Origin: Halorientalis sp. IM1011
GTDB lineage: Archaea > Halobacteriota > Halobacteria > Halobacteriales > Haloarculaceae
Direction: 5' to 3'
NCBI RefSeq assembly: GCF_001989615.1
Contig: NZ_CP019068.1
Span: 124,001-188,000, forward strand
Length of the DNA stretch: 64,000 nt
Shown here: positions 51,050-59,743 of the stretch, piece after piece
How positions within the stretch are numbered: the stretch's first letter is position 1
Layout: each line of letters starts with the position of its first letter
Made by a program: the position numbers and the translations under genes
The notes under the pieces: model-generated
Databases searched by the model: none
What the model was told of the DNA's origin: nothing
What the model saw: the letters and a program-made list of their open reading frames with translations, nothing else

Positions 51050-51199
51050 TCAGGAAATCTCGTATCGAGCGATGCTCCTCCGACCGCAGGCCGGACACAC
51101 GTCCGTGTCACCGTCGACGACGTCCCCGCAGTGGCGGCACTCGTAGTGGACCTGCCGACTGGCCGTCCCGAGGAGGAGCCGGTGCCAGAACCGGTTCAT
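51050..51199 (-). CDS. Small zinc-ribbon protein coupled to TFB
   Basis: 49 residues: MNRFWHRLLLGTASRQ, then YECRHCGDVVDGDTDVCPACGRRS and a short IARYEIS tail. Two CxxC knuckles. The ATG overlaps the TFB stop (ATGA at 51196-51199). Paralogue of the protein at 1172-1318. Coupling to TFB suggests a transcription-linked role, unproven. Confidence 0.72.
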   Translation of the reverse strand: MNRFWHRLLLGTASRQVHYECRHCGDVVDGDTDVCPACGRRSIARYEIS

Positions 51200-52137
51200 G
51201 CCGACCCCGTCCCGAGCTGTGCTTGCAGCGTGTTGCGATTGGCCCGAACCGTCACTGGACAGACGTCCGCTGCTGTTGCGAGTGCTTCCTGTGTGACGTC
51301 ACCATTGTGCTCGGTGGCCGCGACTTCGAGACAGGCTGCCGCAAACCCAGCCGGATCGCGACCACTGGACAGGCCTGTCTCTGTTGCCTGGTCGGCGAGC
51401 GCTATCGCTGCACGTCTCGTCTCGGGTGCCGCGTCGACTGCCGATGCCAGCTTCGGGACGAATGCCGCCGGCTCTTGGGGTGGGATCGGCAAGTTTAGTT
51501 CCCGATTCAGGGTCTGGTAGGCGTTCCTGACACGGGACTCGGCAACGCGAGCGACGCGGGTGATCTCCGCGAGTGTCCGCGTCTGCTCCGCACACCGACA
51601 CGCCGCGTAGACACAGGCAGCCGCCATCGATTCGATCGACCGACCAGGGAGGAGTGACGCGTCCTGTGCCGTCCGGAACAGTGTCGCCGCCTGTTCTCGA
51701 ATTGCCCGATCGAGGCCCAGTGCCGAAACGAGCCGCGCGATCTCCGTACAGCCGTGTCCGAGGTTGCGTTCGGCCTTGGACTGCCACGTCGCCCGGCTGT
51801 GTTCGCGACGGAGTCGGGAAAGTTGTCGTCGCTTCTGGTTCGGGAGTTCGTTCCCCTTTGCGTCCTGTCCGCGGCCGATCGTCGTCGACAGGCCACGGTC
51901 GTGGCGTGCGTTCGTCAGCGGTGCGCCCGTGCGCTCGCGTTTGGTTTCATCTCTCGGATGGATCCGCTTTCCACGCCGGTCCAGGCGAGCTGCCTCGACG
52001 ACCAGCCCGCAGGTGTCACAGCGCGTTTCGCCTTGCTCGGTAACGAGTGTGCCTGGACAGTCCGGGCAGTCGTTCGTCGGGAGTTTCCCGGTCGATTCCT
52101 CGTCGAAGCCATCTGCGTAGATGTCGCTCGAAGCCAT
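51196..52137 (-). CDS. tfb: Transcription initiation factor TFB (TFIIB)
   Basis: 313 residues. N-terminal zinc ribbon CPDCPGTLVTEQGETRCDTCG, B-reader/linker region RKERTGAPLTNARHDRGLSTTIG-like, then two cyclin repeats (IARLVSALGLDRAIREQAATLF; AFVPKLASAVDAAPETRRAAI). It recruits RNA polymerase to TATA/BRE promoters. Haloarchaea keep many TFBs; one in accessory DNA may redirect polymerase to element genes. Confidence 0.92.
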   Translation of the reverse strand: MASSDIYADGFDEESTGKLPTNDCPDCPGTLVTEQGETRCDTCGLVVEAARLDRRGKRIHPRDETKRERTGAPLTNARHDRGLSTTIGRGQDAKGNELPNQKRRQLSRLRREHSRATWQSKAERNLGHGCTEIARLVSALGLDRAIREQAATLFRTAQDASLLPGRSIESMAAACVYAACRCAEQTRTLAEITRVARVAESRVRNAYQTLNRELNLPIPPQEPAAFVPKLASAVDAAPETRRAAIALADQATETGLSSGRDPAGFAAACLEVAATEHNGDVTQEALATAADVCPVTVRANRNTLQAQLGTGSA

Positions 52138-53959: not shown

Positions 53960-54412
53960 ATGTCGCTCTGGCGAGCAAAGCGGAAATACGAGGCCAATCA
54001 GGGCCTCAACGAAACCGCCGACGACGCTTTGCTAGCCATCGCTATACTCCAAAACGAGAGCGGCGACTTCGGAGTATACACACCACAGGAAGTGAGGGAG
54101 AATCTTGAGGATGGCTGCGAGATTCTACAGGGAGTCCGTGGTGCTCTTGAGAGCCCAAATGAGGCTTCGAGTTATTACCTTGCGCTAGCGGATCACCTCC
54201 GAACCACGGGTCGTAAGCAGACGGCCAAACAGTTCAGCCGGGATCTGGAAACCGCCACTACCGCCTTGGTAGAGTCTTCCGAGAGTCTCCAATGGAATTC
54301 TGAGTTGAACAAGGCCAAGCAACTCCTTCAGCGGGTCGAGGAGTTCACGTCGGAAACTTCTAAACGGAATGTAGACAATCTGAGAGGGAATCTTGCGGGA
54401 GGAACTCGCTAA
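53960..54412 (+). CDS. Helical protein preceding the metalloprotease-like gene
   Basis: 150 residues from ATG 53960 (MSLWRAKRKYEANQGLNETADD). All-helical and acidic: LLAIAILQNESGDFG, YYLALADHLRTTGRKQTAKQFSRDLE, then a coiled coil. Its end overlaps the next gene's start by 20 bp. Codon use is less GC-biased than the transfer operon's. Not recognised; possibly a regulator or substrate of the protease partner. Confidence 0.65.
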   Translation: MSLWRAKRKYEANQGLNETADDALLAIAILQNESGDFGVYTPQEVRENLEDGCEILQGVRGALESPNEASSYYLALADHLRTTGRKQTAKQFSRDLETATTALVESSESLQWNSELNKAKQLLQRVEEFTSETSKRNVDNLRGNLAGGTR

Positions 54413-55454
54413 CCGACGCCTGACGAGGCTTGAGAGTCAGTTATCACAACTCCGTAGTGACCTCTTAGAGTTGGATGCAGGCCTTTCCGACAAAGAAAGC
54501 AAGACGTTCCTTGAACCAGTCGAGAAGACGCTCGAAAGAGCGAAGACACGCCAAGAGGCACTTGCACAGGCATCAGAAGACTCAGTGTCAGACTTCTATG
54601 ATCGATACGTCTCCGCACTCGACGACCTTGATGTTCGCCTGGATAACCTCCACGAAATAACGGGGTACATCGAACTCCATGCCCGTCAACGCGCAGAGGA
54701 TACAGAGATGATCGACGACATTAGCGAAGTGTGTTCAGAAGTCAGCAGCCCTCTGAACATCTCTATTACCGTTCTTCCGACGATCTGGGAGTCATACGCG
54801 ATATTCCCCCTCCAAGAGAAGGGTGGCGAAATTTACAGTCTCTTAGCTCCTCGCCATGCGAACCCGAGACAGTACCAACCTCTGTTAGCACACGAGTTAG
54901 GTCACGCACTCTTCGACCAAGTCGGGAAGGATCGTGCATATCACGACCGGATGTGGGAGATCGACGACGATTGGGGAGGGGAGAGAGGGGCTTTCGCCGA
55001 ATACTGGGATGAGTGGTACACAGAATTTCTCTGTGATGCCTGTGGTGTGCTCACTTTCGGCCCAGCTTATGTGTATGCGATCTCAGATTACCTACATAAC
55101 CAGCGTCCGTACAACCTATTCATCGAACACCCCCCGAATGCCCTTCGCCTCAGGTTCATAAGCCAATTGACGAGGGACGTCTTCCCAGACGCCGCCCTGG
55201 AGATGGTTCAACCGGTTTTGAGCTCAATAGATGGCCACCTGAACAACCAATCACAAAACAAACCAGAGAACTACGATAGTTATGTCGCAGAGGAGTTGTT
55301 GGCTTTGGTCAGCGATGCTGCTCAGCGGGAGGTAGACAACGAACTCCAGAGGATAACGGAGCAAGTTAACTCTGATACGTCTCTTGAAGAGGTCGACACA
55401 GGGATTAGATATCGAGTGAAAGTGAACCGGAAGTGGGCTCAGAACGGTGGATAG
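54393..55454 (+). CDS. HExxH zinc-metalloprotease-like protein
   Basis: 353 residues from TTG 54393. Residues 1-110 form a long coiled coil (LTRLESQLSQLRSDLLELD...). The catalytic region has LLAHELGHALFDQVG (HExxH, ~170) and a downstream acidic helix WYTEFLCDACG (~212) with a possible third ligand (Glu). Zinc peptidases of this gluzincin-like kind cut protein. No signal peptide, so cytoplasmic. The 3' end overlaps the Argonaute 3' end by 16 bp, convergent. Confidence 0.72.
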   Translation: MREELANRRLTRLESQLSQLRSDLLELDAGLSDKESKTFLEPVEKTLERAKTRQEALAQASEDSVSDFYDRYVSALDDLDVRLDNLHEITGYIELHARQRAEDTEMIDDISEVCSEVSSPLNISITVLPTIWESYAIFPLQEKGGEIYSLLAPRHANPRQYQPLLAHELGHALFDQVGKDRAYHDRMWEIDDDWGGERGAFAEYWDEWYTEFLCDACGVLTFGPAYVYAISDYLHNQRPYNLFIEHPPNALRLRFISQLTRDVFPDAALEMVQPVLSSIDGHLNNQSQNKPENYDSYVAEELLALVSDAAQREVDNELQRITEQVNSDTSLEEVDTGIRYRVKVNRKWAQNGG

Positions 55455-57625
55455 CGAACGCGACTACACTTTTCAAAGATTTCGTTGAGGTCCTTCGGAA
55501 TCTTGGTCGTTACTGGCGGTTTCATTTTCATCATCGGTGAACCCCAGTTCAAGAAAGACAGCTTGAATACGTCTTCACCGATAGCTGTGATGTCCTGATC
55601 ATGGGACGTGGCTCGTCTCTTACAAAGGATTGGTTTGGGCGTCCCTTGGTGGATCTGAGGCTCACCGAACGTGGTCACTAATACGTGTTCATCATCCAAT
55701 TTTGCGTATGCACCTGTGTCCGGTGCACGACTTCCTCGTTCCGAGAACAACCGATAAGCGTGATTTTCGATGATTTCAACCGCTGACCACGAAACATCCG
55801 TGTGAACGTATTCTTGATTCTGAAGCGCAGGAAGTTCTGATGATAGCGTTTCAAGTTCCGCATCTCCGAAATCACCGTTCCGATGGATGTCGAATGACTC
55901 GATTGGGCGGTCAAATGCTGAGCTGGCCGCCTTTAGACTTTGTTGGATAATTCGCTTGGCTGGGTATCCCTCGGACACAGTACTGGTACCCTGGCCAAGT
56001 GGTTCTTCTGTCTGATAGAGAAACCTGCCGTCCCTTCCGTCGATAGTAACAGCAGTTGCCGTCGTGGATCGATCTCCAGCGACGCTGAGTCCTAAATAGA
56101 CATCTGAATTGAGTTCGTTTGCGAGACCGAATGGGTACGTACCCAATTTCACAGCGAGTCCACAAGCAGTGTTGAAGATGACGTCGTCCGATGCACCCTG
56201 ACCTTCCGAGTACGTCGATGTAGTCACGTACTGGGTTGGAGCGCCTCCGAATGCATCGATGATTTCGTAATATTCGTCACCTTCGCCCTCAATGAGTCCG
56301 AGAACACCGTCGATGGAGTCTCCGAACTCAGCCACCCATTCGTCAAACTCTACTTGATCAGTGTAGCAAACACGGTGAGGGTCGGATCGGATTTGGACCC
56401 CACCGATCTCTAAGAGCTTCTCCCGAACATCTTGATAAAGGTTTTCGGCCCGCGTCCTTTCTCCCCCAGGATATGCGAGTACGATTTCGGAAATCTTGCT
56501 CTGAGACTCCCAGAACCCGTACTCTTCAAGGTAGTCACGGGTGATCCAGCGCCAATTTCCCGGATGGACCTCTTGACTCGGATCCACAGTGTTAGGTGTG
56601 CCAGTCGAAAGGACCTCATCGTTCCCAAACGCTAAGTCCGGATAATTAAAGTCACCCTGCTCGGTTGGTCTCACTCCGTCGTCGCTGACGAACACTTTCT
56701 CGTCCTCGACCTGAACGTAGTGAATTCGACCAGTGAAATTCTGAATGGCTTTTTGCCGTTCTTTTGCGGACAGGGCGGCCTCACTGGTTAAGTGGCGGTT
56801 CAGTTCTTCTGGAGATGCGTTCAACAACGAAGGTGCGGTATCGTACGGATCGCTGTTTCCAAATCGGATTTGGACTAATGGTTCGTCGGGATCTATCTTG
56901 TCTGCCCATTCGCTCCCGTATTCCCGCTGTGCGAATTCACGGACGGAGAGCATCTCATCTCCAAAATCGATAGTTTTGTCCGAGACTTTCCTCTCCGTCG
57001 AAATTCCGTGAAGCGTACATTTGGTAGGTTCTGGACGGTCCAACCTGAAGTTCTCTCCACCGTACTTCTCAATGGCTTCCTCGATCCCCTGGTGGTTGAT
57101 TCGGTCTGCGAGCGACTCACTACTGATGAACTTCGTAACCGATCTCACCACTAACTGTGGACTGTCATGGAATTCAACTCTATACGAAAATCCCGTGTAT
57201 ACGTCGTACTCATCGATTTGACCGCGAGGGGAAGGATAGAATAGTGCGTCTGCGTCCTCGTGATACCAGAAGTCCTGATAGTTCGTCATGTACCACCGAA
57301 CAGAATCCGAGATGGCTCGTTGAAGGACCATTCGGTCCCAGAAAGACGATGATTCCAAGGTGTGGGTCGTAGTAAACTTGGCGCTCGTACCACTACTCGG
57401 AGATTCGATGGTTTTCCGTTCGCTTGCGCCTATGACGGCAATGCACCAATCTCCATCCTCGGCCTGTCTCCACTTTTGTGCTTTCCCGTCGAGTTGCTGT
57501 TCGAAGCTCCTCTCTAGCCCTCCGAGAACTCGGTAAGGATCGTTCGATGGCTGTGGGTCTACTTTGTAAAGATCCGCATCGATATCCGGAATCTCTAACT
57601 CATACGCGTTGAGAGAGTACGCCAT
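55439..57625 (-). CDS. Prokaryotic Argonaute, catalytically inactive PIWI
   Basis: 728 residues from ATG 57625 (a GTG lies at 57640); TATTTATC at ~57651-57662 is a TATA candidate for a leaderless mRNA. Domains: N-terminal and PAZ-like (YTGFSYRVEFHDSPQLVVRS, ~150-190), MID (~400-470), PIWI (~490-728) with DVIFNTACGLAVKLG, IHRNG and HQGTPKPILCKRR. The first catalytic Asp of the tetrad is Ser (LGLSVAG, ~514) and the third is Asn (IHRNG for HRDG, ~583), so target cleavage is not expected. Such long Agos bind guide and target and pass the signal to a partner. Confidence 0.85.
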   Translation of the reverse strand: MAYSLNAYELEIPDIDADLYKVDPQPSNDPYRVLGGLERSFEQQLDGKAQKWRQAEDGDWCIAVIGASERKTIESPSSGTSAKFTTTHTLESSSFWDRMVLQRAISDSVRWYMTNYQDFWYHEDADALFYPSPRGQIDEYDVYTGFSYRVEFHDSPQLVVRSVTKFISSESLADRINHQGIEEAIEKYGGENFRLDRPEPTKCTLHGISTERKVSDKTIDFGDEMLSVREFAQREYGSEWADKIDPDEPLVQIRFGNSDPYDTAPSLLNASPEELNRHLTSEAALSAKERQKAIQNFTGRIHYVQVEDEKVFVSDDGVRPTEQGDFNYPDLAFGNDEVLSTGTPNTVDPSQEVHPGNWRWITRDYLEEYGFWESQSKISEIVLAYPGGERTRAENLYQDVREKLLEIGGVQIRSDPHRVCYTDQVEFDEWVAEFGDSIDGVLGLIEGEGDEYYEIIDAFGGAPTQYVTTSTYSEGQGASDDVIFNTACGLAVKLGTYPFGLANELNSDVYLGLSVAGDRSTTATAVTIDGRDGRFLYQTEEPLGQGTSTVSEGYPAKRIIQQSLKAASSAFDRPIESFDIHRNGDFGDAELETLSSELPALQNQEYVHTDVSWSAVEIIENHAYRLFSERGSRAPDTGAYAKLDDEHVLVTTFGEPQIHQGTPKPILCKRRATSHDQDITAIGEDVFKLSFLNWGSPMMKMKPPVTTKIPKDLNEIFEKCSRVRYPPF

Positions 57626-57729
57626 CTGATGGCTAGACACTACAGTGAAACTGATAAATACTTATTCCTCACATCAGAACTGATGTGACCGTAGCAGTGT
57701 GGTTTTGGTCCGTTATCTCAAAGTTGGGC

Positions 57730-58360: not shown

Positions 58361-59743
58361 ATGGAGCAATTCGTTGATCGGGACGTCGAACTCGATCAGC
58401 TCACGGACTGCTACGAGTCCGGGGCCGCAGACTTCGTTGTCATCTACGGCAGACGTCGCCTCGGTAAGAGCGAGCTCGTCCGCCAGTCCATCGCTGATCG
58501 GGATGACGCCGTCTATTACCAAGCAGTCGAATCCACGGCACAGAACCAACTCGAACAGTTCGTCGACACCGCCACCGCACAATTCCCCTCGTTGCAGAAC
58601 GTCCGCCGCGACTGGGAAGCCCTCATCGAAACACTCGGCGAGGAAGACGCTATCGTGGTCATTGACGAGTTCCCGTTCCTCATCGAGGAGGACGAATCGC
58701 TTCCCTCACGGATCCAGCGAGTGTGGGATATGGAACTCCAGGAGACGGGGATGACGCTCGTGCTCGTCGGCTCCTCGATCAGCGTCATGGAGGACAAAGT
58801 GCTCTCCGGAAGCGCACCCCTGTACGGCCGTCGGACAGCGACGATTGATCTCAAACCGCTCTCTGTCGCTGATGCACGCCAGTTCTTCCCAGAGTACGAC
58901 CCGGAGACAGCTATCACAGCATGGTCGATCTACGGCGGCACTCCGTACTACCTCCAGACCATTGATCCCGACCAGTCGCTCGGAACGAACGTCCAGCGGG
59001 GGATTCTCTCGGAGCAGGGGCTACTGTACTCTGAACCCGAGTTCCTGCTCCGCACTGAACTTCGACAGCCGAACACGTACTTCAGCATTCTCCGTGCGCT
59101 CGCCCACGGGCGTCGCACTCCGAACGAAATCGCCGGCATGGCCGGCGTAGAGTCGGGATCACTCAGCACGTACCTCCAGAAACTCCGTCGACTCCGTCTC
59201 GTCGAGCGCCATATCCCCGTGACGGAATCCCCGACGGCCTCGAAACGCGGTCGGTATCGCATCGCTGCGCCGTTGTTCCGGTTCTGGTTTCGCTTCGTCT
59301 ACGGGAACCAGGACCAGCTTCGGATGCTCGACGATGACGCGTACGACGAACTTGTCGTACCAGAACTGGCGGATTACGTGAGTCCGCTGTTCGAACGCCT
59401 CTGCCAGCAAGCGCTCCCAGACCTCCTCGACCGACAGTTCCGCGATGTTGGGCAGTGGTGGTTCAAGGAACACAAACTCGATGTCCTCGGCCTCACTGGC
59501 GACGGCCTCGTCGCCGGCGAGTGTAAGTTCACATCCCAACCCGTGAGTGAGGGCGTCCTTGCCGACCTTGAACGAACAGCGTCAGAAGTCCGATGGTCAG
59601 AAGGACCGGCAGACGGCGAGACCCTGTACGTCTTGTTCAGCCGCTCCGGGTACACTGACGACCTCAAAAACGCCGCTGACATACGTGACGACGTTCGAAT
59701 CTTTGAGTTGCCCGATTTGATCATGAGAAGTCACCAGGGATGA
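58361..59743 (+). CDS. Archaeal AAA ATPase with DUF234-type C-terminus (copy 2)
   Basis: 460 residues, nearly the same as the protein at 4857-6230 throughout. Walker A YGRRRLGKSELVRQ, Walker B AIVVIDEFPFLIEE, HTH RTPNEIAGMAGVESGSLSTYL, C-terminal DVLGLTGDGLVAGECKFTS. Synonymous differences are many, so the copies are not a recent duplication. It ends convergent with the AbiEi remnant (23-bp overlap). Confidence 0.9.
   Translation: MEQFVDRDVELDQLTDCYESGAADFVVIYGRRRLGKSELVRQSIADRDDAVYYQAVESTAQNQLEQFVDTATAQFPSLQNVRRDWEALIETLGEEDAIVVIDEFPFLIEEDESLPSRIQRVWDMELQETGMTLVLVGSSISVMEDKVLSGSAPLYGRRTATIDLKPLSVADARQFFPEYDPETAITAWSIYGGTPYYLQTIDPDQSLGTNVQRGILSEQGLLYSEPEFLLRTELRQPNTYFSILRALAHGRRTPNEIAGMAGVESGSLSTYLQKLRRLRLVERHIPVTESPTASKRGRYRIAAPLFRFWFRFVYGNQDQLRMLDDDAYDELVVPELADYVSPLFERLCQQALPDLLDRQFRDVGQWWFKEHKLDVLGLTGDGLVAGECKFTSQPVSEGVLADLERTASEVRWSEGPADGETLYVLFSRSGYTDDLKNAADIRDDVRIFELPDLIMRSHQG

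Follow-up and report, generated by a model that had tools for sequence, protein, structure and literature searches.

The 64,000-nucleotide stretch analysed here, hereafter the window (G000:C2:124001-188000), lies on a 277-kb contig of the 3.78-Mb genome of the haloarchaeon Halorientalis sp. IM1011. At 53960-57625 it carries a three-gene cassette: genes for a small helical protein and a zinc-metalloprotease-like protein on the plus strand and, on the minus strand, a gene for a slicer-dead long Argonaute (Ago). These three genes are one conserved unit. A homologue of the protease stands beside an Ago in all 23 loci that we collected, comprising 16 from haloarchaea (ten genomes, Haloglomus (G073) and five plasmids), one from a distant archaeon (G594), one from a viral contig and five from bacterial plasmids, and we regard some form of functional coupling between Ago and protease as very likely. 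With slightly better than even confidence, we favour a nucleic-acid-sensing defence module in which the guide-loaded long Ago would control a dedicated zinc metalloprotease, target recognition switching the protease on. Inactive prokaryotic Argonautes (pAgos) are known to act through nucleases, NADases or membrane proteins; neither the literature that we found on pAgo systems nor the libraries searched describe a protease as an Ago partner.

The cassette and its distribution in haloarchaea

The cassette comprises the following features.

53960-54412, plus strand: small helical protein (150 aa), encoded ahead of the protease in their two-gene operon; orthologue in 16/16 haloarchaeal loci
54393-55454, plus strand: zinc-metalloprotease-like protein, 353 aa, TTG start, N-terminal coiled coil; homologue beside Ago in 23/23 loci, hhalign to the bacterial set E=1.7e-18
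54891-54905, plus strand: HExxH motif HELGH, residues 167-171; H167, E168 and H171 invariant in 23/23 loci
55023-55037, plus strand: ExxCD motif EFLCD, residues 211-215, candidate third zinc ligand of a gluzincin; E211, C214 and D215 invariant in 23/23 loci
55128-55148, plus strand: HPPxxxR motif, residues 246-252; P247 and R252 invariant in 23/23 loci, H246 in nearly all
55439-55454, no strand: tail-to-tail overlap of the ago and protease genes, 16 bp; convergent overlap of 4, 16 or 20 bp in 14/16 haloarchaeal loci
55439-57625, minus strand: long Argonaute, 728 aa, slicer-dead; PADLOC pAgo match and VbAgo alignment, monophyletic clade with ultrafast bootstrap 100
56084-56086, minus strand: Ser514 in place of the first catalytic Asp; from alignment with VbAgo and VbAgo-DM
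55877-55879, minus strand: Asn583 in place of the third catalytic Asp, giving HRNG for HRDG; Asn or Gly in 16/16 clade members

A reading of the window made from its letters alone (the sequence-only reading) had described this three-gene layout, with a 16-bp convergent overlap at the 3' end of ago and a GC content below that of the neighbouring transfer operon. Both descriptions stand: the overlap occupies 55439-55454, and GC is 0.50-0.53 across the three genes vs 0.60-0.65 in most of the upstream transfer-gene region. The ago frame starts with ATG at 57625 and is also opened by a GTG at 57640, and the protease gene overlaps the helical gene by 20 bp. The three are not chance open reading frames (ORFs), as each has an orthologue 88-92% identical in one other genome and more distant orthologues (about 23-37% identical) in nine others.

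Ago and protease share the same distribution. A search of 145 relatives found close Ago homologues in four genomes besides that of the window, and the same four hold protease homologues (92, 31, 32 and 28% identical), always adjoining Ago and convergent with it. A class-wide profile search of 391 haloarchaeal genomes found the full-length protease in ten and the full-length clade Ago in exactly the same ten, adjacent in every one (hypergeometric P about 5e-20 for the coincidence of the two sets); about 35 of the 391 carry other Agos and no full-length protease. Likewise, the five haloarchaeal records with the protease in a plasmid collection are the five with a full-length clade Ago, hosted by Halobacterium salinarum KBTZ03, Halorussus caseinilyticus, Haloplanus rubicundus, Natrinema caseinilyticum and Halosimplex aquaticum; there the cassette genes are annotated as hypothetical proteins. 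These collections are samples of the genomes that exist, and a back-translated pattern search of public genomes, which gave three loci, is no measure of abundance. Within the collections searched, we met neither a clade Ago lacking the protease nor the protease with another partner. The Ago-protease link, which had been proposed from position alone, is thus strongly supported by co-occurrence, adjacency, correlated distances and recurrence in bacteria and archaea.

The helical and protease genes share 20 bp in 11 of the 16 haloarchaeal loci and 8-17 bp in the rest, and the protease start is nearly always TTG (in G361 it is a guess), which suggests that the two genes are translationally coupled. 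The ends of ago and the protease gene overlap by 4 bp in ten loci, by 16 bp in three and by 20 bp in one, and are separated by 1 bp in another. At the Natrinema locus, the two genes are intact but separated by an IS5-family transposase and other ORFs, so the overlap itself is not essential. The distances of the three cassette proteins are strongly correlated (r = 0.90, 0.92 and 0.85; 0 of 20,000 permutations as high), as expected of a unit that travels together, and since different families hold cassettes that are very similar (those of H. salinarum, G090 and G207), the cassette appears to move horizontally.

Two plasmids call for comment on annotation. On H. salinarum plasmid NZ_CP146627.1 (L099:11193-12311), the annotated protease start is too late, and conservation favours a TTG 20 bp inside the helical gene. 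The cassette region of Halosimplex aquaticum plasmid NZ_CP118159.1 (L103, L104) is duplicated, apparently with damage to both copies: the annotation splits one Ago in two and omits its protease, and it gives the other Ago only 573 aa.

Active sites of the Argonaute and the protease

The window Ago matches the PADLOC pAgo models (PprPIWI, E=2.7e-119, residues 1-720), and its profile aligns to VbAgo, which has a solved structure, across residues 88-712 (E=7.5e-47), which identifies it as a long prokaryotic Argonaute. This assignment is made at the level of sequence; an AlphaFold model built from four sequences was unusable (predicted local distance difference test, pLDDT, 46). PprPIWI was rejected as a marker of the protease pairing, since it models archaeal Agos in general and gives NgAgo-type Agos its best scores. 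The sequence-only reading had noted Ser in place of the first catalytic Asp and Asn in place of the Asp of HRDG, and the alignment bears this out, with Ser514 and Asn583 at the two positions mutated in VbAgo-DM, the catalytic double mutant of VbAgo. The window Ago therefore falls outside the catalytically active (DEDX) long Agos, and cleavage of RNA by it is not expected, since the catalytic Asp residues are absent.

Across the 16 haloarchaeal Agos of the clade, the third Asp is always replaced, by Asn or Gly, and the first is replaced by Ser or Asn in 14 and retained in two; loss of the third is thus clade-wide and loss of the first is not. All other long haloarchaeal Agos compared retain both. 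The slicer-dead Agos are monophyletic (0.996 in FastTree, 100 by ultrafast bootstrap), and in the bootstrapped tree, which was built without long-B reference sequences, a grouping with the RslAgo lineage has a support of only 35, with two methanogen-type Agos inside. Haloarchaeal and bacterial-type Agos align over 687 columns in hhalign (100% probability).

The protease is the more constant of the two proteins in its putative active site. Besides the start, the residues P153, H167, E168, H171, E211, C214, D215, G223, P247 and R252 are invariant in all 23 proteases. HExxH together with ExxxD is the gluzincin signature, and it is at the level of these motifs, HELGH and EFLCD in the 23 loci, that we call the protein gluzincin-like. 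Its N-terminal 95 residues or so are predicted to form a three-helix antiparallel coiled coil, and the highest 19-residue Kyte-Doolittle averages (1.44 for the protease, 0.80 for the helical protein) give no transmembrane-like segment in either. The sequence-only reading had likewise described a cytoplasmic zinc-protease-like protein with a long coiled coil.

Comparison of haloarchaeal and bacterial proteases in hhalign covers about 305 columns (99.1%, E=1.7e-18, score 138, with shuffled controls at 21 or below), and on this basis we consider the two sets homologous. At every one of the 23 loci, the gene ahead of the protease is small (118-150 aa); the small proteins of haloarchaea match those of bacteria only weakly (hhalign 14.7%).

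We found no named family for the protease, as nothing rose above threshold in sequence searches of Pfam, NCBIfam, PADLOC and the PDB, and no PADLOC, NCBIfam or Pfam model covers it; a Pfam scan of the three cassette proteins of the window likewise gave no match above cut-offs. PDB matches of the protease profiles were mostly to coiled coils. The window protease scored 12.4 bits against peptidase M78 (PF06114), below the gathering score of 22, and faint similarity to M78 appears in four of 11 proteases (best E=0.023; hhalign to M78 16%) and to CapP in two of 11 (best E=0.018). M48 was rejected as a near relative (hhalign about 1%).

Relatives beyond haloarchaea and neighbouring genes

A phylum-wide search with the protease profile led to G594, in which a PD-(D/E)XK nuclease, Ago, a small helical gene and the protease follow one another on one strand. 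The IMG/VR contig IMGVR_UViG_3300034378_000255 (L145:5339-9000) instead has the haloarchaeal layout of helical gene, protease and convergent Ago. This contig encodes a terminase (PHROGs, E=3.7e-41), and a virus may use the system itself; the phage records searched held no homologue. Searches with the G594 and Runella proteins then gave five bacterial plasmids, from Runella slithyformis, Rhizobium sp. L51/94, Spirosoma oryzicola, Emticicia oligotrophica and an Aphanizomenonaceae cyanobacterium, in which nuclease, Ago, small gene and protease form one operon; the same five hold both Ago and protease. The pair thus occurs in two gene orders, convergent in haloarchaea and the viral contig and as a single operon in bacteria and G594.

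In G594, the viral contig and the bacterial plasmids, the protease-linked Agos retain both catalytic Asp. A dead PIWI domain was accordingly rejected as the defining trait of the pairing, which is with Ago as such. Most simply, loss of slicing would be a haloarchaeal derivation and the protease the constant partner.

A helix-turn-helix (HTH) regulator or a sigma factor precedes the operon in four of the five bacterial plasmids. The Runella and Rhizobium operons start with an XRE-type HTH_3 regulator, and those of Spirosoma and Emticicia with a sigma-70 factor followed by a conserved 180-aa protein. In the latter two (L149:12592-13739 and L151:3731-4869), sigma-70 and the 180-aa protein (25% identity, E=9e-17) come before the nuclease-Ago-protease genes. 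The 180-aa protein is a candidate regulator of the sigma factor and a candidate substrate of the protease, an arrangement that recalls RpoE-Csx30 of Craspase loci.

WP_013921749.1, the Ago of the Runella operon, is RslAgo, which the text of PMC9360449 describes as a DNA-guided RNA nuclease. By the account of that text the operons share their gene composition, of which it names the nuclease as well as the regulator or sigma factor; the protease goes unmentioned in it, and the downstream genes may appear unlabelled in the figures or supplements. PADLOC, too, models the operon nuclease (Aga_Cas4-like_Nuc) and not the protease.

Several cassettes adjoin other defence genes, with changing outer neighbours. 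AddAB-like helicase-nuclease genes (UvrD-helicase, PD-(D/E)XK nuclease) lie near 11 of the 16 haloarchaeal cassettes and SbcCD-like genes near five (loci L024, L025, L026, L070, L071, L072, L073, L075, L099, L100 and L101), several of them recognised by N-terminal sequence or annotation rather than by profile; PF12705 as a whole has only 1-10 matches per genome. These neighbours are possible guide-generating machinery, which would fit DNA-derived guides. The window locus has neither AddAB-like nor SbcCD-like genes nearby.

Near the window cassette, a plus-strand ATPase_2/DUF234 gene (58361-59743) matches the PADLOC candidate defence model PDC-S27 (E=4.4e-48). A DUF2250 gene of the window was rejected as a component of the system, having no homologue near the other loci. 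A TFB-like gene lies at 51196-52137 on the minus strand, and TFBs 46-47% identical lie near the Natrinema and Halosimplex cassettes; this likeness suggests related plasmid backbones. About 45 kb from the cassette on the same contig is a PD-(D/E)XK gene pair (G000:C2:224902-229027), one frame of which has an internal TGA and may be broken. In Haloglomus halophilum, a cluster that resembles Dnd-type DNA phosphorothioation stands directly beside the cassette (L024:1959-7142), with genes that by sequence appearance are PAPS-reductase-like, SMC-like ATPase and cysteine-desulfurase-like. On the Rhizobium sp. L51/94 plasmid (L147:5712-7818), the protease gene is convergent with a neighbour that it overlaps, annotated as a cGAMP-activated phospholipase of CBASS, the cyclic oligonucleotide-based antiphage signalling system.

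A proposed mechanism, its rivals and known systems

In the mechanism that we favour, Ago would load a short guide. On the model of RslAgo, PliAgo and VbAgo, this guide would be DNA and would pair with the RNA of an invader. The small helical protein could bridge Ago and protease or restrain the protease. Since this Ago has lost the catalytic Asp residues, target pairing would not lead to slicing; the signal would instead pass to the HExxH/ExxCD protease and activate it, and cleavage of a host or regulatory protein by the protease would bring about dormancy, death or induction of defence. We propose this because inactive long-B pAgos switch on partner effectors and because Craspase, in a further analogy, activates a protease upon recognition of RNA. 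Several observations count for it: protease and clade Ago co-occur exactly and side by side, the HExxH and ExxCD residues stayed invariant over 23 loci while the slicer residues decayed in the haloarchaeal Agos, the pair has been kept in unrelated replicons despite two gene orders, the protein distances are correlated, and several cassettes have other defence genes beside them. The sequence-only reading had raised the idea of the protease as the guide-sensed effector of a dead Ago. The link that it drew is strongly supported and its restriction to dead Agos did not hold, as distant Agos keep both Asp; the effector role, like the activation, the substrate and the defence role of the cassette, is what we infer.

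Several points weigh against this mechanism. Because the distant protease-linked Agos keep both Asp, the protease is not simply a substitute for slicing, and the XRE-type or sigma-type regulators of the bacterial operons could be its substrate. Foldseek and VIA-align searches with the protease model (pLDDT 71, weaker in the core) returned helical bundles and coiled coils and no zincin, the structural matches being dominated by the coiled coil. Correlated protein distances would also be expected if the genes were merely inherited together.

The main rival, which we think unlikely on balance yet ahead of the others, makes the protease a regulator like ImmA, IrrE or CapP that would cleave a transcription factor of the locus upon infection or DNA damage and so induce the Ago system. 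A regulatory protease fits the bacterial operons almost as well as an effector does: HTH_3 in Runella and Rhizobium, and sigma-70 with the 180-aa protein in Spirosoma and Emticicia, are plausible substrates, and the faint M78 and CapP likeness points the same way. Against this, the Pfam and PADLOC family thresholds are missed, and the 16 haloarchaeal cassettes have no conserved regulator, the DUF2250 gene of the window having no homologue near the others and a TFB-like gene standing beside few. Moreover, haloarchaeal protease and ago are separate, convergent transcription units. The substrate of Craspase is a sigma-binding protein, so it may be that effector and regulator roles merge.

A housekeeping role seems improbable to us, with the protease serving to mature, load or recycle the Ago machinery, for example through removal of the helical protein or processing of the nuclease, and having no part in signalling. 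It would suit the tight coupling of helical and protease genes, with overlaps of 8-20 bp in haloarchaea, and the nuclease gene of the bacterial operons; yet that nuclease is not conserved beside the haloarchaeal cassettes and so is no common substrate, and purified RslAgo and PliAgo are active in vitro according to the text of PMC9360449, so that slicing needs no proteolytic maturation. Still less probable is a non-proteolytic HExxH protein serving as a metal-binding scaffold or binding partner of Ago: no peptidase family is reached at threshold and the core of the fold model is of low confidence, but across the 23 loci the general-base Glu168 is conserved without exception, just as the putative metal ligands are. 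Chance gathering of three unrelated genes in a defence or plasmid hot spot, for which the defence-rich regions and plasmids around several loci might speak, is close to refuted by exact co-occurrence and adjacency in all loci, across two domains, two gene orders and changing outer neighbours.

It is also conceivable, though here we stop somewhat short of even confidence, that an Argonaute-directed protease system extends across bacteria, archaea and the one virus contig. Target recognition by the long Ago would activate the gluzincin-like protease, with RNA cleavage as the off-switch in slicers and the haloarchaeal form as a pure sensor-protease. If true, Ago immunity would gain a new class of effector, and Craspase an Argonaute equivalent, which has gone unnoticed in the RslAgo operon. 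Should target recognition indeed trigger proteolysis, the system would also be a programmable protease of a new kind. The Ago-protease pair makes it testable how slicer-dead Agos and RNA-targeting D-R (DNA-guided, RNA-cleaving) Agos protect cells, and the RslAgo operon and the natural cassette on a Halobacterium salinarum plasmid offer material for such study.

Among known systems, M78 (ImmA/IrrE) proteins and CapP of CBASS are likewise small cytoplasmic HExxH proteins of mobile-element or defence loci with faint profile similarity to the cassette protease, which differs in missing their family cut-offs, in its ExxCD...G...HPPxxxR signature and in having an Ago as partner. APAP (PMC11442185) likewise gives a haloarchaeal long pAgo a dedicated partner; its Agos, however, keep DEDX and pair with a phospholipase-D protein, whereas the window cassette has neither DEDX nor an adjacent phospholipase-D gene. 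The haloarchaeal survey in that paper reports that haloarchaeal pAgos consistently contain DEDX, and it therefore apparently missed the slicer-dead clade. In BPAN, BPAS and BPAM (Song et al. 2023, PMC10620215), the long-B pAgos are inactive and switch on partner effectors, and as in the window, a long Ago without slicer residues is tied to one partner presumed to act in its stead. That partner is an og_15 nuclease, a Sir2 protein or an og_100 membrane protein encoded downstream in the ago operon, unlike the HExxH protein of the cassette, which has no transmembrane segment and is encoded convergently to ago.

In gene content, the cassette resembles the operons of the D-R pAgos (PliAgo/RslAgo and PnyAgo; Lisitskaya et al. 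2022, PMC9360449, as set out in its text), which have a homologous long Ago, a homologous protease and a small gene between or beside them. They differ in that the haloarchaeal Ago is without the catalytic Asp, the genes are convergent, and the window cassette has no Cas4-like nuclease gene before ago and no HTH or sigma gene. In principle of action, a parallel would be Craspase (the type III-E CRISPR gRAMP with TPR-CHAT), a guide-directed, RNA-activated protease that target cleavage is proposed to shut off (PMC9729208). The proteins are unrelated, the cassette having no gRAMP effector and no CHAT/caspase-like protease domain; what the two would share is a guide-directed sensor that activates a protease, and both Craspase and some of the related Ago operons come with a sigma factor.

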